In this document: positions 3,523 through 43,409 of the stretch, one piece after another
How the letters are laid out: each line of letters opens with the position of its first letter
Position numbering within the stretch: the first letter of the stretch is position 1
Source of the DNA: Pseudomonas sp. KU26590
GTDB taxonomy: Bacteria > Pseudomonadota > Gammaproteobacteria > Pseudomonadales > Pseudomonadaceae
Length of the DNA: 64,000 bases
Reading direction: 5' to 3'
NCBI RefSeq assembly: GCF_026153515.1
Contig: NZ_CP110644.1
Span: 5,149,501-5,213,500, forward strand
Position numbers and translations under genes: made by a program
The notes under the pieces: generated by a model
Databases searched by the model: none
Told to the model about the DNA's origin: nothing
What the model saw: the letters and a program-made list of their open reading frames with translations, nothing else

Positions 3523-6500
3523 CTAATACACGTCCCGCACGTAGCGCTTTTGCTCGCTCAGACAGCGCAACTGTTCGGCCGCCTTTTCCAGGCTGACGCC
3601 GCCCTGTTCGCTTATGACCCGACGCAAGGCCTGATCGACATCCCGCGCCATCCGCGAAGCATCGCCGCAGATGTACAGGTGTGCACCCTCCTCCAGCCAG
3701 CGCCAGAGTTCGGCACCCTGTTCCTGTATGCGCTGCTGAACGTAGATCTTTTCCGCCTGATCCCGGGAAAACGCCAGGCTCAGCCGGGTCAGCAGTCCGT
3801 CTTCGTGCATGCCTTGAAGCTCGTCCCGGTAGTAAAAGTCAGTGGCCTGATGCTGTTCGCCGAAGAACAGCCAGTTACGGCCCCGATCGCCCCGGGCACG
3901 CCGCTCCTGTAAAAAAGCCCGAAACGGCGCCACGCCGGTGCCCGGGCCGATCATGATCATCGGCACATCGCCATCGAGCGGCGGGCGAAAATGCCGGGTG
4001 GGTTGCAGGAAAATCGGCACCTCGCACTCGCCCGCCCGATCCGCCAGGAAGGTCGACGACACGCCTTTGCGCGGGCCGTAGCGCACAGCGGAAACCGTCA
4101 GGTGAACTTCATCGGGATGCGCCTTGGCGCTCGACGCGATGGAATAAAGCCGCGGTTGCAGCGGCTTGAGATGGTCAAGCCATTCCATGGCAGAGCAGGC
4201 AATCGGAAACTCTCGCAGCACGTCCGCCAACTGCCGCCCCCACAGCCAATCCTTCAGCTCGCTTTTGAAGGGTTCGGTCAGCAGGGTTTTCAGGTCATTG
4301 CTGCCGTTGCGCTCGGCGATGAATGCCAAGGTGTCTGCACCAGGTCGCGCGATTTCAAATTGCTCGGCCAGCGCCTGACGCAGCGGCACGTCGACCGCCT
4401 TCACGCCGCGCACCGGCTGCTCGGCATTCAGTCCCGTGAGCTCGAGCAGCTCGCTCACCAACTCAGGGCAATTGCGCGGCCACACCCCTAAAGCGTCGCC
4501 GGCTTCGTAGGTCATGCCCGATCCCTCAAGGGTCAGCGCCAGCTGCCGCGTGTCCTTGGCGGCACCGTCCGCGTTCAGTCTCCGATTAAGCGACAAACGC
4601 GCGTGATGGGGCTGTGTCCGTGAAGGCTGCTGCCCAAAAACCGGGGCGTTGTCGCCAACCGAAAGGGTAGGAAGATTCAGCGACAGCGCCTGCTGCAACC
4701 CCGTGAACCAGCTGTCTGCGTGGACCTGGTATTCGCCGTCGCAATCGACTCGGGCGATCAGCGATGAAGCGCCCAAGTGATGCAGGCGCTGGTCGAGGTT
4801 CTTGCCGTGCTGGCAAAAGCGGTCGTAACTCGAATCACCCAGCGCCAGAACGGCGTAGCGCAGCGACTCCAGACGCTCTTGCCGGGCTGCCAGTGACTGC
4901 CAGAATCGTTGCCCGTTGTCTGGCGCTTCGCCGTCGCCGAAGGTGCTGCTGATCAGTGCGACGTTCTGCAGCTGGTCCAGACGCCCGGAGGGAAAACTGT
5001 CCATCGCCGCCACCTGAACCGGCACGCCGGCCGTCTTCAACCGGTCGCCAAACTGTCTGGCCAACGCTTCGGCGTTCCCGGTCTGAGATGCCCAAAGCAG
5101 CGTCAACAGCGGCGCCTGGTCGGGTGCTGTCTGCGTCTCGGTCTCGGCTTGGGGCAATTCAAGGAAGCGATGCCCGATCAGCTCGACCTTGCGCAAGACA
5201 ACCGCACAGCACTTGAATTCAGGCTGGCGAGAGATCGGGTCGACGGCGTCGTTGGTCACTGCGTTGATCGCCAGCTTTTCGCCGTACACGTCGTTCCAGT
5301 GAAAGGGCGCGAAGCAGTTGCCCGGCAACACGCGGTCGCTGATCACCGCAGGCAGCACCGCAAGGCCTCGGGCGGAACGGATCTCCACGCCATTGCCTTC
5401 GCAGATCCCCAGCGCAAGGGCATCGTCGGGGTGCAGCTCGACGAACGGCCGCGCATTCAGCGCGTTCAGTGTCGGGACTTTCCCGGTCTTGGTCAGCGTG
5501 TGCCACTGATGTTGGAGGCGGCCGGTGTTGAGCACCATGGGAAATGCATCGTTGGGCAGTTCAGCTGCAGGCATGTGCGGGCGTGGGAAAAATACCGCCT
5601 TGCCGTTTGCGGTGGGAAAAAGGATCGCAGGACGTGTAGCTGCGCCCTTCTCAACGGGTCGTGCGTCGATATCGCCGAGGTAACGAATCGGGTTGCGTGT
5701 GCGCTCTTCGTCGGGCGCGCATGGCCACTGCACCGGTTGATCCCGCAGCCGCCCATAGCTGGCGCCGCGAATGTCGTAGCCCGTGGCGGGGTTCCACGCC
5801 TGTTTGATTTCCCCGAACACCTCCTGTGACGAGGCGTAACTGAAAGCATCAGCGAAGCCCATTTCACAGGCGACCCTGGCGATGATCTGCCAGTCCGGCA
5901 GCGCCTGGCCCGGCGCATCAACGGCTTTTTGCGTCAGGTTGAGGGTGCGTTCGGAGTTGATCATCACCCCTTCCGCCTCAGCCCAGAGCGCGCCCGGCAA
6001 CAGGATGTCGGCGTAGCGATTAGTCTCGGTGTCGAGGAAGGCGTCCTGGGTGATGACCAGCTCGGCGGCCTTCAGCGCGTCGATGACCGTGGTGCGGTTG
6101 GCAACGCTGGCCACCGGGTTGGTGCAGATGATCCAGCAAGCCTTGATCACGCCGTCGCGCATCTGCTCGAACAGGTCGATGGTGCCGCCGCCGGGCGTGT
6201 GCGGGATGCTGCCCTGGGGGATGCGCCAGAGGTCTTCGATGAAGCGGCGGTCGGCATCCACCAGTACCGAGCGCTGTCCGGGAAGCCCTGGGCCCATGTA
6301 GCCCATTTCCCTGCCGCCCATGGCATTCGGCTGGCCGGTCAGGGAAAAAGGACCGCTGCCGGGCCGACAAATCGCTCCGGTCGCCAAATGCAAGTTGCAC
6401 AGCGCATTGGTGTTCCAGGTGCCGTGGGTGCTCTGGTTCAGGCCCATGGTCCAGCAACTCATCCACTCCTGCGCCGCGCCGATCATCCGCGCAGCCTGAC

Positions 6501-7329
6501 GGATGTCGGCTTCGGCCAGGCCGGTGATCTGCGCGACGCAAGCGGGCGTGTACGCGGCGAGGAATTCGGGCATGACGTCCCAGCCCTGGGTGAACGAGGC
6601 GATGAAATCGGCATCGGTGTCGCCGTTCTCCACCAGCAAGTGCAACAGGCCATTGAGCAGCGCGAGGTCGGTGCCCGGTTTGATTTGCAGGAACAGCCCG
6701 GCCTTGTCGGCGGTGGCGCTGCGCCGGGGATCGACGACGATCAGCTTCGCCCCGGCCTTGACCCGGTCCATCATGCGCAGGAACAGGATGGGGTGACAGT
6801 CGGCCATATTGGCGCCAATCACGAAAAACAGATCGGCCTTGTCGAAGTCATCGTAGGACCCCGGCGGGCCGTCCGCGCCCAACGAGAGCTTGTAGCCGCT
6901 GCCCGCGCTGGCCATGCACAGCCGCGAGTTGGACTCGATATTGGCCGTGCGCACGAAGCCCTTTGCGAGCTTGTTGGTCAGGTATTGCGCCTCCAGGGAC
7001 ATCTGCCCCGAGACGTAGAACGCCAGTGCGCCGGGGCCGTCGCGATCCAGAATCCCACGCAAGCGTCGGGCGGTTTCGCTGATCGCAGCGTCCATGTCAG
7101 CACGCACCGGCTCGTGGCTGCGCTGATGGCGGATGTAGGCGGACTCCATCCGCCCCGACTCGGCAATCGCCTGGCCGCAGGTGGTGCCTTTGGTGCACAG
7201 TCGGCCGAAATTGCTCGGGTGTGTCTTGTCGCCGACGACCTTGATGACCCGGTTGCCCTCGACCTGCATGACGATGCCGCAGCCGACACCACAATAAGGA
7301 CACACGCTCTTTACGCTGCTGCTCGCCAT
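3523..7329 (-). CDS. nasA: assimilatory nitrate reductase fused to a diflavin (CysJ-like) reductase
   Basis: A 1268-residue cytoplasmic enzyme reducing nitrate to nitrite. Residues 1 to about 700 are a molybdopterin oxidoreductase of the NasA/NarB group. Cys10, Cys13, Cys17 and Cys45 are the [4Fe-4S] ligands, and Cys138 in NSRLCMASA is the expected Mo ligand. From about 740 a flavodoxin domain begins (LLWASQTGNAEALARQFGDR), then a FAD-binding domain (YSIASS near 1060) and an NADPH-binding domain (GPGTGVAPFRAFLQERR near 1128, ending YVRDVY). The fusion lets one polypeptide take electrons from NAD(P)H to nitrate, replacing the separate NasC/NasB reductase. The start at 7329 places the cluster motif at the N-terminus. 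It is divergent from nirBD and preceded by a sigma54-type promoter and an antitermination leader. Confidence 0.95.
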   Translation of the reverse strand: MASSSVKSVCPYCGVGCGIVMQVEGNRVIKVVGDKTHPSNFGRLCTKGTTCGQAIAESGRMESAYIRHQRSHEPVRADMDAAISETARRLRGILDRDGPGALAFYVSGQMSLEAQYLTNKLAKGFVRTANIESNSRLCMASAGSGYKLSLGADGPPGSYDDFDKADLFFVIGANMADCHPILFLRMMDRVKAGAKLIVVDPRRSATADKAGLFLQIKPGTDLALLNGLLHLLVENGDTDADFIASFTQGWDVMPEFLAAYTPACVAQITGLAEADIRQAARMIGAAQEWMSCWTMGLNQSTHGTWNTNALCNLHLATGAICRPGSGPFSLTGQPNAMGGREMGYMGPGLPGQRSVLVDADRRFIEDLWRIPQGSIPHTPGGGTIDLFEQMRDGVIKACWIICTNPVASVANRTTVIDALKAAELVITQDAFLDTETNRYADILLPGALWAEAEGVMINSERTLNLTQKAVDAPGQALPDWQIIARVACEMGFADAFSYASSQEVFGEIKQAWNPATGYDIRGASYGRLRDQPVQWPCAPDEERTRNPIRYLGDIDARPVEKGAATRPAILFPTANGKAVFFPRPHMPAAELPNDAFPMVLNTGRLQHQWHTLTKTGKVPTLNALNARPFVELHPDDALALGICEGNGVEIRSARGLAVLPAVISDRVLPGNCFAPFHWNDVYGEKLAINAVTNDAVDPISRQPEFKCCAVVLRKVELIGHRFLELPQAETETQTAPDQAPLLTLLWASQTGNAEALARQFGDRLKTAGVPVQVAAMDSFPSGRLDQLQNVALISSTFGDGEAPDNGQRFWQSLAARQERLESLRYAVLALGDSSYDRFCQHGKNLDQRLHHLGASSLIARVDCDGEYQVHADSWFTGLQQALSLNLPTLSVGDNAPVFGQQPSRTQPHHARLSLNRRLNADGAAKDTRQLALTLEGSGMTYEAGDALGVWPRNCPELVSELLELTGLNAEQPVRGVKAVDVPLRQALAEQFEIARPGADTLAFIAERNGSNDLKTLLTEPFKSELKDWLWGRQLADVLREFPIACSAMEWLDHLKPLQPRLYSIASSAKAHPDEVHLTVSAVRYGPRKGVSSTFLADRAGECEVPIFLQPTRHFRPPLDGDVPMIMIGPGTGVAPFRAFLQERRARGDRGRNWLFFGEQHQATDFYYRDELQGMHEDGLLTRLSLAFSRDQAEKIYVQQRIQEQGAELWRWLEEGAHLYICGDASRMARDVDQALRRVISEQGGVSLEKAAEQLRCLSEQKRYVRDVY

Positions 7330-7347: not shown

Positions 7348-7402
7348 AAAAAAAGACGCCCTGTTCTCATCCGTTGAAAAACGGAGAGCACACGGCGCCT
7401 TT
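7348..7402 (-). terminator. leader terminator (attenuator) of nasA
   Basis: In minus-strand sense, AAAGGCGCC pairs with GGCGTCTTT and is followed by a T7 run. An inner CCGTT/AACGG stem extends the hairpin. It lies inside the 108-base untranslated leader, upstream of the nasA start, so transcription would stop before the gene unless it is antiterminated. The outer stem is identical to that upstream of nirB. Confidence 0.85.
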
Positions 7403-7433
7403 GTCGTGAATATGGCAATCGGCGTTGATTGCC
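7391..7433 (-). promoter_or_regulatory. ANTAR-type two-hairpin antitermination element, nasA leader
   Basis: Hairpin P1 (7414-7433): GGCAATC, hexaloop AACGCC, GATTGCC, a perfect 7-bp stem. Hairpin P2 (7391-7408): CACGAC, hexaloop AAAGGC, GCCGTG, with one mismatch. Both hexaloops have A at position 1 and G at position 4, the signature bound by ANTAR proteins such as NasR and NasT. P2 uses the 5' arm of the terminator, so P2 and the terminator exclude each other. The predicted start site (about 7437) lies four bases before P1. Confidence 0.8.
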
Positions 7434-7447
7434 TGTGCGGACGATGT

Positions 7448-7463
7448 TGCAAACGGCAGGCCA
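7448..7463 (-). promoter_or_regulatory. sigma54-type promoter of nasA
   Basis: In minus-strand sense, TGGCCTGCCGTTTGCA matches TGGCAC-N5-TTGCW. The GG and GC doublets have the required spacing, with two mismatches in the -24 block. The predicted start at about 7437 fits the leader RNA structure exactly. Confidence 0.7.
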
Positions 7464-7560
7464 GCGCGGGCTGGTGACGTGCAGACCGCATCAGACGCCG
7501 ATACACGATGAATTCAGGCGGGTGGCTTCAGCTTCACGATGGGGCGGTCGGAGGGAAATC

Positions 7561-7575
7561 GCACTGTTTTCGTGC
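7561..7575. promoter_or_regulatory. putative NtrC-binding site
   Basis: GCACTGTTTTCGTGC fits the GCAC-N7-GTGC dyad of NtrC enhancer sites. It lies about 100 bases upstream of each of the two divergent sigma54-type promoters, so one enhancer could serve both. Confidence 0.6.
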
Positions 7576-7675
7576 CGGTCAGGCTGACTCGAATCCCGCT
7601 TCTGCCCGACGGGGCGGGCAGAATCAAGCGCAGAACGCGCCGTACACGGGCGTGACTTACTCACCCATGACCGGC

Positions 7676-7691
7676 TGGCACAGCCATTGCT
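7676..7691 (+). promoter_or_regulatory. sigma54-type promoter of nirBD
   Basis: TGGCACAGCCATTGCT is an exact match to TGGCAC-N5-TTGCW. The predicted transcript starts near 7702 and has a 208-base leader before nirB. Confidence 0.82.
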
Positions 7692-7732
7692 ACGTCTCTA
7701 TCAAGTCCAGCCTGAACACGCGGTTGGCAGCC

Positions 7733-7840
7733 CTGGCCGGTCAACGCGGACCGCCAGCCGTTCACGGCGTCGGGCTCACCAGGTTGGCGTCGACACTGTG
7801 GTCGCGCGGCAACCCCTAAAAGAACAGGCAAAGGCGCCTG
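7733..7840 (+). promoter_or_regulatory. ANTAR-type two-hairpin antitermination element, nirB leader
   Basis: P1 (7733-7757): a CTGG/CGGTC stem with one bulge, hexaloop AACGCG at 7743-7748, then GACCG/CCAG. P2 (7825-7840): CAGGC, hexaloop AAAGGC, GCCTG. Both loops carry A1 and G4, and the P2 loop is the same as in the nasA leader. P2 overlaps the 5' arm of the terminator at 7832-7870. P1 and P2 are about 67 bases apart here, against five in the nasA leader. Confidence 0.78.
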
Positions 7841-7870
7841 GAACCGAGAGGTTCCGGGCGTCTTTTTTTT
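7832..7870 (+). terminator. leader terminator (attenuator) of nirBD
   Basis: A 14-bp stem, AGGCGCCTGGAACC / GGTTCCGGGCGTCT, with GAGA loop and eight T, 40 bases before the nirB start. Its outer stem and the following GCTTTCA tail repeat those of the nasA leader terminator. Confidence 0.9.
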
Positions 7871-7909: not shown

Positions 7910-10471
7910 ATGACCACCACAGTCGCCCCACTCAACGACGTCCAAACCCTGATCGTGATCGGCAACGGCATGGTGGGTCACCACTGCGTCGAGCAGCTGA
8001 TCGCCGCCGGTGCCCTTGAGCGCTATCGCATTCATGTGTTCGGCGAGGAAGGCCAGCGCGCCTACGACCGCGTGCATTTGTCCGAATACTTCGGCGGGCG
8101 CGACGCCGAGTCACTGGCGATGAGCGCTGCTTCTTTATATGAGCAGACCGGGCTTGCGCTGCACCTGGGTGTGCCGGTGCTGGAAATCGACCGGGCGCGG
8201 CGCGAAGTGGTAACAGCCAAGGGCTGCTTTGGATACGACAAGCTGGTGCTGGCCACAGGCTCCTACCCTTTCGTGCCGCCCATCGAAGGCGCTGAAGGTC
8301 ACTCGCGGCTGGTCTACCGCACCCTGGACGACCTCGACACCATCCGCGCCGCCGCCAGCCAGGCAAAACGCGGCGTGGTGGTCGGCGGCGGGCTGTTGGG
8401 ACTGGAAGCGGCCAACGCGCTGAAGTCGCTGGGCCTGGAAGCCCATGTCGTGGAATTCGCGCCACGCCTGATGCCGGTGCAGCTGGACGACCACGGCGGC
8501 GCTGCCCTGAAGGCGCGCATCGAAGCACTGGGCGTGGGCGTGCACCTGTCCCGCGCGACGCAGTCCATCAGCGCGGGTGAGGAATACCGCTACCGGATGA
8601 ATTTCGCTGGCGATGAATTCCTCGAAACCGACCTGATCGTCTTCTCCGCCGGCATACGCCCCCAGGACGCCCTCGCCCGCCAGTGCGAACTCACCCTGGG
8701 CCCGCGCGGCGGCATCGCCATCGACGAACATTGCCGCACCAGCGACGCTGATATTTTCGCCATCGGCGAATGCGCCGCCTGGAACGGCAGTGTTTTCGGC
8801 CTCGTCGCACCGGGTTATCAAATGGCCCGCAACGTCGCGGCGCAGTTGTGCGACCTGGCCGCCGAGCCGTTCTTCGGCGCCGACATGTCGACCAAACTCA
8901 AATTGCTCGGCGTCGACGTCGGCTCCATCGGCGATGCCCATGGTGCGCTGACAGGTTCGCGCAGCTACCGGTTCATCGATGAGGCCAGCGGCAGTTATCG
9001 CCGCTTGGTGGTGTCCGCCGATGGCAAAAAAGTCCTTGGCGCGGTGCTGGTGGGCGACAACAGCTATTACGACAACTTGCTGCAATACGTGCAGAACGGC
9101 ATAAAGCTGCCCGCCGATCCGTCGAGCCTGATCCTGCCCCACAGCGACGGCGCGCCAACCCTTGGCGCCGATGCCCTGCCCGCCACGGCAACCATTTGCT
9201 CGTGCCACAACGTCAGCAAGGCCTCGATCTGCTCGGCCATCGACGGCGGTTGCACGGACCTTGCCGGGCTCAAGGCCTGCACCAAGGCAGCCACCGGTTG
9301 CGGCGGTTGTGCGACGCTGCTGAAAAGCGTCTTCGAGCATGAGCTGATCGCCCGCGGCGTTGCCGTCGATAAAAGCCTGTGCGAGCACTTCCCCTTTACG
9401 CGTCAGGCGTTGTACGCCTTCGCCCGCGTGGAAAACATTGAAAGCTTCGACGAGATGCTGGCCCGCCACGGCAAAGGCCATCTGGGTTGCGACATCTGCA
9501 AGCCCACCGTCGGCTCGATCCTCGCCTCGTGCTGGAACCGGCCGATCATGGACCCGACCCTGGTGCCGCTGCAGGACACCAACGACACGTTCATGGCCAA
9601 CATGCAGAAGAACGGCACGTATTCGGTGGTGCCGCGCATCCCGGCGGGCGAAATCACTGCGGACGGCTTGATCGCCATCGGCGCGGTCGCGAAGAAATAC
9701 GACCTGTACACCAAGATCACCGGCGGCCAGCGCATCGACCTGTTCGGCGCGCAGTTGCATGAGCTGCCGGACATCTGGGCCGAGCTGATCGCCGCCGGTT
9801 TCGAGACCGGCCATGCCTACGGTAAATCGACGCGGACGGTGAAGTCCTGCGTCGGCAGCACCTGGTGCCGTTACGGCGTTCAGGACAGCGTGCAAATGGC
9901 GCTCAACATCGAGGATCGCTACAAGGGCCTGCGCTCGCCGCACAAGCTGAAGTTCGCGGTGTCCGGCTGCACTCGTGAATGCGCTGAGGCCCAGAGCAAG
10001 GACATCGGCGTGATCGCCACGGAGAACGGCTGGAATCTGTACGTGTGCGGCAACGGCGGCATGCGCCCGCGCCACGCCGAGCTGTTCGCCACCGATCTGG
10101 ACGACGAGACGCTGATCCGCTACATCGACCGCGTGCTGATGTTTTACATCCGCACCGCTGACAAGTTGCAGCGGACGTCGGTCTGGCGCGAGTCCCTTGA
10201 AGGCGGGCTGGATTTTCTGAAAGCCGTCGTGATCGATGACAGCCTGGGGCTCGCCGCCGAACTGGAGGCGCAGATGCAGTTAGTGGTCGACCGTTATGAA
10301 TGCGAGTGGGCGAACGCGCTGAAGAGTCCGGAGAAGCTCAAGCGCTTCCGCACGTTCGTCAACGACAAGGCCGCTGACCCGGACATTCATTTCGTCAAGG
10401 AGCGCAGCCAGCGTCGTCCGGCTCGCGCTGAAGAGTTGAATCTGATTGCTGCTGTGGAGGTTGCTCGATGA
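7910..10471 (+). CDS. nirB: assimilatory nitrite reductase [NAD(P)H], large subunit
   Basis: An 853-residue cytoplasmic enzyme reducing nitrite to ammonium. Domains in order: FAD binding (VIGNGMVGHHCVEQL from about residue 16), NAD(P)H binding (GVVVGGGLLGLEAANAL from about 155), a BFD-like [2Fe-2S] domain (TICSCHNVSKASIC near 428, then CGGC), and the sulfite/nitrite reductase ferredoxin half-domain. The siroheme/[4Fe-4S] ligands are Cys647, Cys653, Cys687 and Cys691 (CVGSTWC, SGCTREC). Length is normal for the family. nirD follows with a 4-base overlap. Expression is probably under sigma54/NtrC control plus leader antitermination (7676-7870). Confidence 0.97.
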   Translation: MTTTVAPLNDVQTLIVIGNGMVGHHCVEQLIAAGALERYRIHVFGEEGQRAYDRVHLSEYFGGRDAESLAMSAASLYEQTGLALHLGVPVLEIDRARREVVTAKGCFGYDKLVLATGSYPFVPPIEGAEGHSRLVYRTLDDLDTIRAAASQAKRGVVVGGGLLGLEAANALKSLGLEAHVVEFAPRLMPVQLDDHGGAALKARIEALGVGVHLSRATQSISAGEEYRYRMNFAGDEFLETDLIVFSAGIRPQDALARQCELTLGPRGGIAIDEHCRTSDADIFAIGECAAWNGSVFGLVAPGYQMARNVAAQLCDLAAEPFFGADMSTKLKLLGVDVGSIGDAHGALTGSRSYRFIDEASGSYRRLVVSADGKKVLGAVLVGDNSYYDNLLQYVQNGIKLPADPSSLILPHSDGAPTLGADALPATATICSCHNVSKASICSAIDGGCTDLAGLKACTKAATGCGGCATLLKSVFEHELIARGVAVDKSLCEHFPFTRQALYAFARVENIESFDEMLARHGKGHLGCDICKPTVGSILASCWNRPIMDPTLVPLQDTNDTFMANMQKNGTYSVVPRIPAGEITADGLIAIGAVAKKYDLYTKITGGQRIDLFGAQLHELPDIWAELIAAGFETGHAYGKSTRTVKSCVGSTWCRYGVQDSVQMALNIEDRYKGLRSPHKLKFAVSGCTRECAEAQSKDIGVIATENGWNLYVCGNGGMRPRHAELFATDLDDETLIRYIDRVLMFYIRTADKLQRTSVWRESLEGGLDFLKAVVIDDSLGLAAELEAQMQLVVDRYECEWANALKSPEKLKRFRTFVNDKAADPDIHFVKERSQRRPARAEELNLIAAVEVAR

Positions 10472-43017: not shown

Positions 43018-43389
43018 ATGAGCGACACACCGATCATTGAACGCATCGAACGACCTTTGCACGATTACCCGGAGCAGAACGTACAGGGCTGGGAGCGCAT
43101 CGGCTCGCTGGCAGGTGGTGTCCTGATGATGGGCAAAGGCCTGCGCCGCGGCGGGATCTTTGGTCTGGTGGAGCTGGCAATCGGCGGCGCCGTACTGGCC
43201 CGCGGCATCACTGGCCACTGCTCGGCCAAAGCGTTGATCGACAAGAGCCGCAGCGAAATGGACGTGGCCCGTTCGCGCATCCAAGAAGCCGGCGCCGAAC
43301 TGAGCAAGCTGAAAACCAAGGCTGAAGTCGCTGTAGAAGACGCTGTCGACACTGGCGTTGACGCGTTGAAAGGTCCGAAAGGCGTCTGA
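43018..43389 (+). CDS. DUF2892-like inner-membrane protein
   Basis: A 123-residue protein with a Gly-rich hydrophobic hairpin (GSLAGGVLMMGKGLRRGGIF; GLVELAIGGAVLARGITGHC) like the YgaP-type DUF2892 pair of helices. A charged helical tail (SRSEMDVARSRIQEAGAELS) follows. Function unknown. GGAG (43004-43007) precedes the ATG at 43018, and a terminator lies just past the stop. Confidence 0.78.
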   Translation: MSDTPIIERIERPLHDYPEQNVQGWERIGSLAGGVLMMGKGLRRGGIFGLVELAIGGAVLARGITGHCSAKALIDKSRSEMDVARSRIQEAGAELSKLKTKAEVAVEDAVDTGVDALKGPKGV

Positions 43390-43409
43390 TCCACGCTGCA
43401 TCGCACGCA

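Follow-up and report, generated by a model that had tools for sequence, protein, structure and literature searches.

Putative ANTAR-type leader RNAs on both arms of a divergent nasA-nirB locus in Pseudomonas

Described systems and the divergent locus

Antitermination by ANTAR proteins has been described for dual-hexaloop leader RNAs, in which two hairpins (P1 and P2) carry six-base loops with A at position 1 and G at position 4 (A1/G4), P2 overlaps a terminator, and the linkers of the E. faecalis eut elements measure 5-12 bases (PMC3369931). For EutV, binding to a single hexaloop was reported together with a structure in which the two hexaloops of an RNA cannot both be held by one dimer, and a recruit-and-transfer model was proposed (PMC8934654). 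In the NasS-NasT system of Paracoccus, NasT binds the nasA leader RNA (PMC3795266). A review citing a P. putida study describes NasT antitermination of nirBD via the leader NalA and an action of c-di-GMP through NasT (PMC12830290), while RpoN, NtrC, and NasT are reported to act on nirBD in P. aeruginosa (PMC8092218).

The locus analyzed here lies in a window of 64,000 nucleotides, the whole stretch of DNA that was examined, from a 6.18-Mb Pseudomonas genome. Here nasA on the minus strand and nirB-nirD on the plus strand diverge and form an operon pair for nitrate use:

3523..7329, minus strand: nasA, assimilatory nitrate reductase-like protein of 1268 aa, assigned by similarity
7910..10471, plus strand: nirB, nitrite reductase large subunit of 853 aa
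10468..10845, plus strand: nirD, nitrite reductase small subunit (TIGR02378, 86.2 bits, cut-off 74.65)

This arrangement resembles the NalA/NasT nirBD system in its sigma54 promoter, NtrC, terminator leader, and NasT as the candidate antiterminator (PMC12830290, PMC8092218). Unlike that system, the window holds two mirrored leaders at a divergent locus, with nasA having its own. The A1/G4 hexaloops and the overlap of P2 with the terminator are shared with the EutV, NasR, and AmiR dual-hexaloop elements (PMC3369931), whereas the nirB leader of the window has three hexaloop hairpins and a distance of 67 bases between its distal hairpin, P1a, and P2. Within the scope of literature titles and abstract openings, no three-hexaloop leader and no equation of narK RNA with an ANTAR element was found, the likeliest primary papers (Romeo 2012, Nie 2024) lying outside that scope. 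The three-hairpin nirB leader is plausibly a new variant; otherwise the two leaders are mostly known in kind, NasT antitermination of nirBD being already published for Pseudomonas. For the unsettled matter of how two hexaloops serve one ANTAR dimer, the nirB leaders provide natural variants in recruitment, transfer, and spacing.

In NasA, a molybdopterin-reductase part precedes the CysJ-like flavoprotein part at the C terminus, and none of the matches listed for it reached its NCBIfam cut-off. The CysJ-like fusion aligned over nearly the full length in 7 of 33 relatives, the other 26 aligning only to residue 756 at most. On the nirB tree, the window's gene clusters with those of P. graminis and P. 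petrae, at 98% identity of the protein. A divergent nasA was present in 33 of 80 named relatives; among the 47 loci without one, L082, L098, and L105 have less than 4 kb of upstream DNA, so that absence there means little.

Promoter elements and leader RNAs in the window

Both arms carry a promoter-like element, and a palindrome lies between them:

7449..7462, minus strand: sigma54-type -24/-12 element of nasA, GGCCTGCCGTTTGC, found by the pattern GGC-N8-TGC and also covered by the 5' end of the match to Rfam narK
7677..7690, plus strand: sigma54-type -24/-12 element of nirB, GGCACAGCCATTGC, found by sequence pattern
7561..7575, no strand assigned: palindrome GCAC-N7-GTGC, NtrC-site-like, between both promoters

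The promoter elements are assigned to the sigma54 type by the sigma54 consensus, and the palindrome is likewise presumed to be NtrC-site-like from the NtrC consensus. The GGC-N8-TGC element occurred in 34 of 34 nasA loci and a sigma54-type element in 79 of 81 nirB leaders. Transcription starts are predicted at about 7437 (minus) and 7702 (plus), and the nasA transcript would enter P1 almost at once. A shared NtrC-like site was considered and set aside as weak, the exact GCACN7GTGC motif being present in no more than 7 of the 34 divergent loci when the first 380 of the 450 bases ahead of nasA were read.

Paired A1/G4 hexaloop hairpins had been described in both leaders by an earlier note on this DNA, with AACGCC and AAAGGC before nasA and AACGCG and AAAGGC before nirB, and all four were recovered. 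It was also borne out that the second hairpin overlaps the terminator in both leaders, that the outer terminator stem (AAAGGCGCC/GGCGTCTTT) is common to them, and that the tails are near-identical. The nasA leader comprises the following elements:

7414..7433, minus strand: P1 hairpin, hexaloop AACGCC (A1, G4), from folding (pair probability 0.99-1.0) and covariation
7391..7408, minus strand: P2 hairpin, hexaloop AAAGGC, with one A-C mismatch and exclusive with the terminator, from folding and pair probabilities
7348..7402, minus strand: intrinsic terminator stem and T run, from folding

With two A1/G4 hexaloop stem-loops, a P2 that is exclusive with the intrinsic terminator, and a P1-P2 linker of 5 bases, inside the range of about 5-12 bases for such elements, the nasA leader is of the ANTAR dual-hexaloop kind. 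Its folding z-score was -4.38. The terminator consumes the loop and 3' arm of P2, and in equilibrium folds the pair probability of P2 was 0.69-0.97, 0.12-0.17, and 0.0 for transcripts ending at 7391, 7386, and 7350, respectively. The second of these values is reached five bases past P2, before the 3' arm of the terminator exists, and counts against the mechanism proposed below.

Among the divergent loci, the P1 loop of nasA read AAYG in 32 of 34 (exceptions L061 and L119), and the P2 loop had A1/G4 in 33 of 34 (exception L077, GACGAC). Covariation of the hairpins in relatives, which the earlier note had made a condition of its reading, was found in part, namely for nasA P1 and by score for the nasA terminator; the distal hairpin of nirB did not show it. 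In nasA P1, double changes occurred in four of seven pairs, and 20 of 500 shuffles attained as many. Taken together, P1 and P2 gave a covariation score of 0.250 versus 0.140 in shuffles (0/500), with 97.3% of cells paired and 24 cells changed on both sides versus 6.2 shuffled. All four double-changed pairs lie in P1, while P2 hardly varies and is uninformative either way. For the terminator the score was 0.261 versus 0.165 shuffled (0/500), with no excess in the number of pair types (reached by 420 of 500 shuffles) or of double-changed pairs (184 of 500).

The nasA leader belongs to the Rfam family RF03032 (narK), scoring 59.4 bits against a gathering threshold of 43.2, with a match spanning 7392-7462 on the minus strand. 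Unlike the leader drawn here, the Rfam model marks one hairpin, opens with a promoter-like stretch, and leaves P2 unmarked and the terminator outside: in its alignment the first 15 bases read as the sigma54 element, pairing is marked for P1 alone, and the 3' end, left without marks, corresponds to P2. Judged from these sequences, the narK family looks like a NasT/ANTAR leader.

In the nirB leader, four elements were identified:

7733..7757, plus strand: distal hairpin P1a, hexaloop AACGCG at 7743-7748, from folding, pair probability, and loop conservation
7782..7814, plus strand: middle hairpin P1b, hexaloop ACTGTG at 7795-7800 (A1, G4), a candidate third ANTAR hexaloop
7825..7840, plus strand: P2 hairpin CAGGC-AAAGGC-GCCTG, loop AAAGGC, from conservation and pair probability
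7830..7870, plus strand: intrinsic terminator and T run, from folding

Two A1/G4 hexaloop hairpins and a P2 overlapping the terminator are features that this leader has in common with the dual-hexaloop class. Counted from P1a as P1, its P1-P2 linker measures 67 bases; counted from the middle hairpin P1b, which sits inside the P1a-P2 gap, it measures 10. The earlier note had overlooked P1b, taken the 67 bases as linker, and offered the contrast with the 5 bases of nasA as a test of how flexible the motif is. Both lengths stand, yet the flexibility of the linker cannot be read cleanly from the contrast, as the 67 bases are themselves folded and contain a further candidate hexaloop near P2. With this correction for the middle hairpin, the interpretation of both arms as ANTAR leaders is supported.

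Folds of the growing nirB transcript allowed all three hairpins to coexist up to 7840, with pair probabilities of 0.88 for P1a (outermost counted pair 0.42), 0.99-1.0 for P1b, and 0.97-1.0 for P2, while at 7870 P2 had dropped to 0.0 and the terminator was formed. When the 71-base linker was folded alone, P1b was not the minimum-energy fold in the window or in L046, whereas it was in L044, L045, and L047-L050. An anti-antiterminator, in which the 3' arm of P1b would pair with the 5' arm of P2, would suit species with AGGC before both loops but does not fit the window. Rfam reported no narK match for the nirB leader. A covariance model built from nasA leaders reached only E 0.12 for nirB, 0.03 for nasS, and 0.20 for an antisense stretch of the nasA leader; as this antisense stretch scores almost as well, the model lends nirB no real support.

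On the nasA strand, a pair of A1/G4 hexaloop hairpins with at least five pairs each, a spacing of at most 12 bases, and a T run behind them was observed once; dinucleotide shuffles of the intergenic DNA produced it in 4 of 3000 cases. For the nirB strand, the same five-pair rule with a gap of up to 80 bases gave one observed case and 14 of 3000 shuffles. Within 12 bases none was observed on that strand, because the inner stem of P1b has four pairs before a bulge and escapes the strict rule. These rare matches make it very improbable that the hexaloop hairpins are chance formations beside terminators that are constitutive or only insulate the divergent promoters from each other, and the conserved loops and the covariation in nasA P1 and in the P1 stems pooled over leader families likewise speak against such an origin.

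NasS-NasT and the proposed mechanism

An ANTAR protein encoded elsewhere in the genome had been anticipated in the earlier note, and in a test set beforehand NasT was located directly after NasS. NasS (L011 4195-5505, NMT1_2) is followed by NasT (L011 5518-6093; 191 aa, Response_reg and ANTAR), and nasT precedes narK and a phosphatase-kinase gene. The NasS-NasT-narK cluster lies 0.8 Mb from the nasA/nirB locus. NasT is one of two ANTAR proteins encoded in the genome. The other (L002 1474-3134, minus strand) is AmiR-like and lies beside a binding protein that was labeled AmiC-like from its position and periplasmic-binding domain.

At a probability of about 0.88, we propose that both arms are driven by sigma54 and that NasT, held by NasS and freed by nitrate or nitrite, antiterminates both leaders, that of nirB being a three-hairpin variant. 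Each arm would be transcribed from its sigma54 promoter under nitrogen control. In the absence of nitrate and nitrite, NasS would sequester NasT, as in studied relatives, and RNA polymerase would halt at the leader terminator. With either ion present, freed NasT would first bind a hexaloop hairpin ahead of P2, at the moment this hairpin emerges, and would then stabilize P2. As the loop and 3' arm of P2 are the 5' arm of the terminator, a P2 stabilized by NasT would let transcription proceed. The nasA leader would act as the standard two-hairpin element with its 5-base linker, while in the nirB leader the distal P1a and the middle P1b, 10 bases from P2, would both precede P2. NasT binding, the ligand response, and read-through at these two leaders are thus predictions of the model.

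Further candidate targets were found in the same genome. RF03032 scored 72 bits for the narK leader, 59.4 for nasA, and 41.5, just under the threshold, for nasS, and the narK leader has the same element as the nasA leader. The nasS leader (L011 4130-4250, genome C1 about 4342130-4342250) has a P1 loop AACGGC. Inspection by eye added a sigma54-like element, a T run, and a P2 that is bulged and carries the loop AATGAC; from this ANTAR-like leader, positive autoregulation of nasST is predicted. A match at E <=0.001 occurred in 33 of 57 genomes, the window's included, all within the genus. Recognizing the Rfam families narK and P11 as sigma54-plus-ANTAR leaders would make both annotatable as likely NasT targets.

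The middle hairpin among nirB and P11-type leaders

The comparison set comprised 81 nirB leaders (the window and L044-L123), and P2 appeared as CAGGC-AAWGRY-GCCYG in all of them. P1a, recognized by G[AG]TC-N6-GA[TC]C, was found in 76, its loop having G4 in 76 of 76 and A1 (AANG) in 68. The middle hairpin, chosen regardless of its loop letters, formed a hexaloop in 66 of the 81 leaders, and position counts refer to these, which have a stem of three pairs and a loop aligned over six letters. Position 4 was occupied by G in 60 of these 66, and the nirB tree shows 3 changes there, as against 8, 8, 11, and 10 changes at positions 2, 3, 5, and 6, respectively; position 1 was A in 47 and G in 14, with 6 changes. 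P1b had A1/G4 in 46 of the 81 leaders. By the state of both hairpins, the leaders fell into these classes:

P1a AANG and P1b A1/G4: 35 leaders, with A1/G4 in all three hairpins
P1a AANG and P1b G1/G4: 14 leaders
P1a AANG and P1b without a hexaloop or with an unlike loop: 19 leaders
P1a G1/G4 and P1b AANG: 8 leaders
P1a not found: P1b AANG in 2 leaders and ANNG in 1
Neither P1a nor P1b: 2 leaders

The middle hairpin may be a further docking site for NasT. Somewhat short of even odds, and thus tentatively, we would regard the nirB leaders as three-hexaloop ANTAR relays in which NasT passes from P1a via the middle hairpin to P2, with a P. syringae lineage that shifted the recruiting AANG hairpin to the middle and kept the switch. 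Close to an even chance is given to the reading in which only P1a and P2 are NasT sites and the middle hairpin is a passive spacer, its A1/G4 loop being incidental or a relic. The 19 leaders that combine an AANG P1a with no or an unlike middle hexaloop, the 14 more with G1, and the prevalence of AANG in P1a (68 of 81) agree with a spacer, whereas the slow change at position 4 of the middle loop compared with positions 2, 3, 5, and 6 does not. As read from the letters, a pair between bases 1 and 6 would be possible in 13 of the 14 G1 loops and in 9 of the 46 A1/G4 middle loops, which would turn them into tetraloops, and several of these loops were folded in this way. Within relatives, neither the P1a nor the P1b stem covaried beyond shuffles (scores reached by 130 and 57 of 300, respectively), which for the middle stem suits a spacer; the support for P1a there consists of sequence conservation. 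Antitermination by EutV in vitro is reported to be abolished when the linker is lengthened by 20 bases (PMC8934654), which argues against a long passive spacer. So do the 11 leaders with an AANG middle loop, ten of which are L051-L060.

These ten P. syringae-group leaders, which form one group on the tree including P. syringae pv. cilantro, P. cichorii, and kin, have the middle loop AACG, with the distal loop being G1 in eight and not found in two. We read this as a recruiting role handed over from the distal to the middle hairpin. As position 1 of P1a changed a single time on the tree, the hand-over counts as one event, not a repeated one. L065, L070, and L071, named P. syringae or P. viridiflava, stand elsewhere on the tree and have retained an AANG P1a. 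If the relay is true, the shift in this lineage would be a natural series for the recruit-and-transfer model of EutV.

From the inner stem of P1a to P2, nominal gaps ranged from 39 to 89 bases in 76 leaders. That folding of the gap yields an unusually short effective linker was rejected: a median of 13 bases remained unpaired in these leaders, and shuffles left fewer (mean 6.3 versus 13.2). The linkers did fold more stably than shuffled ones (lower energy in 69 of 76), and P2 was part of the minimum-energy fold in 75 of 76 leaders versus 61.6 expected. Pooled over the leader families, P1 stems gave a covariation score of 0.530 versus 0.18 shuffled (0/300), with no excess of double-changed pairs (reached in 281 of 300 shuffles) or of pair types (110 of 300).

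Three hexaloop hairpins were also found in most copies of the Rfam 'sRNA' P11 (RF00625), which exceeded its threshold in 82 of 149 genomes of the genus. It resembles the window's nirB leader in preceding a gene of the NirB type, though a different one, and in having P1a, a middle A1/G4 loop, and P2 AAAGGC, and differs in that the window leader scores only 19.7 bits, far under the threshold of 70. From 80 of the 82 genomes (all except G168 and G001) stretches were compared, the P11-type loci being noted as L127-L138 and L147-L226, and in 78 of the 80 a P11-type leader with P2 and T run stood ahead of a NirB homologue encoded on its own strand; L189 and L216, with no NirB homologue shown, were left out. 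The homologues behind these leaders have 33-38% identity to the window NirB. The P2 loop was AAAGG[CT] in 78 of 78, and P1a was found in 63 of 78 by the strict rule and in 77 of 78 by a looser one (A[AG]NG loops, mismatched stems allowed), its stems covarying with a score of 0.310 versus 0.17 shuffled (0/300). The middle hairpin was present in 77 of 78, on which its counts are based, mostly as TCCCG-N6-CGGGA, 3-5 bases ahead of the three inner P2 pairs, with A1 in 73, G4 in 74, and both in 70 of the 78. Positions 3 and 5 of this loop are conserved as much as position 4, so that the loop alone is no proof of protein recognition.

For P. aeruginosa, P11 is reported to be a small RNA that C. elegans reads, with effects on the animal, and that regulates the nirB-nirD-nasC operon (PMC12080996); its name and position lead us to equate the locus with RF00625. 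This report would favor a terminated nirB leader that works mainly in trans as a small RNA, with control of read-through being secondary. We consider such a role improbable for the window: the position of 78 of 80 P11-type leaders ahead of a same-strand NirB homologue is what a cis-acting leader would be expected to show, and the window leader remains far from the P11 threshold.

Single leaders departed from these patterns. In L119 (P. matsuisoli), P2 and the terminator of nirB are kept, with no P1 recognized by the rules in either the nirB or the nasA leader, while L061 has a nirB leader without P1a and P1b and the nasA P1 loop AAAAAC. Elsewhere in the window, at 43344-43391 on the plus strand, a further pair of A1/G4 hexaloop hairpins is followed by a T run, perhaps by chance.
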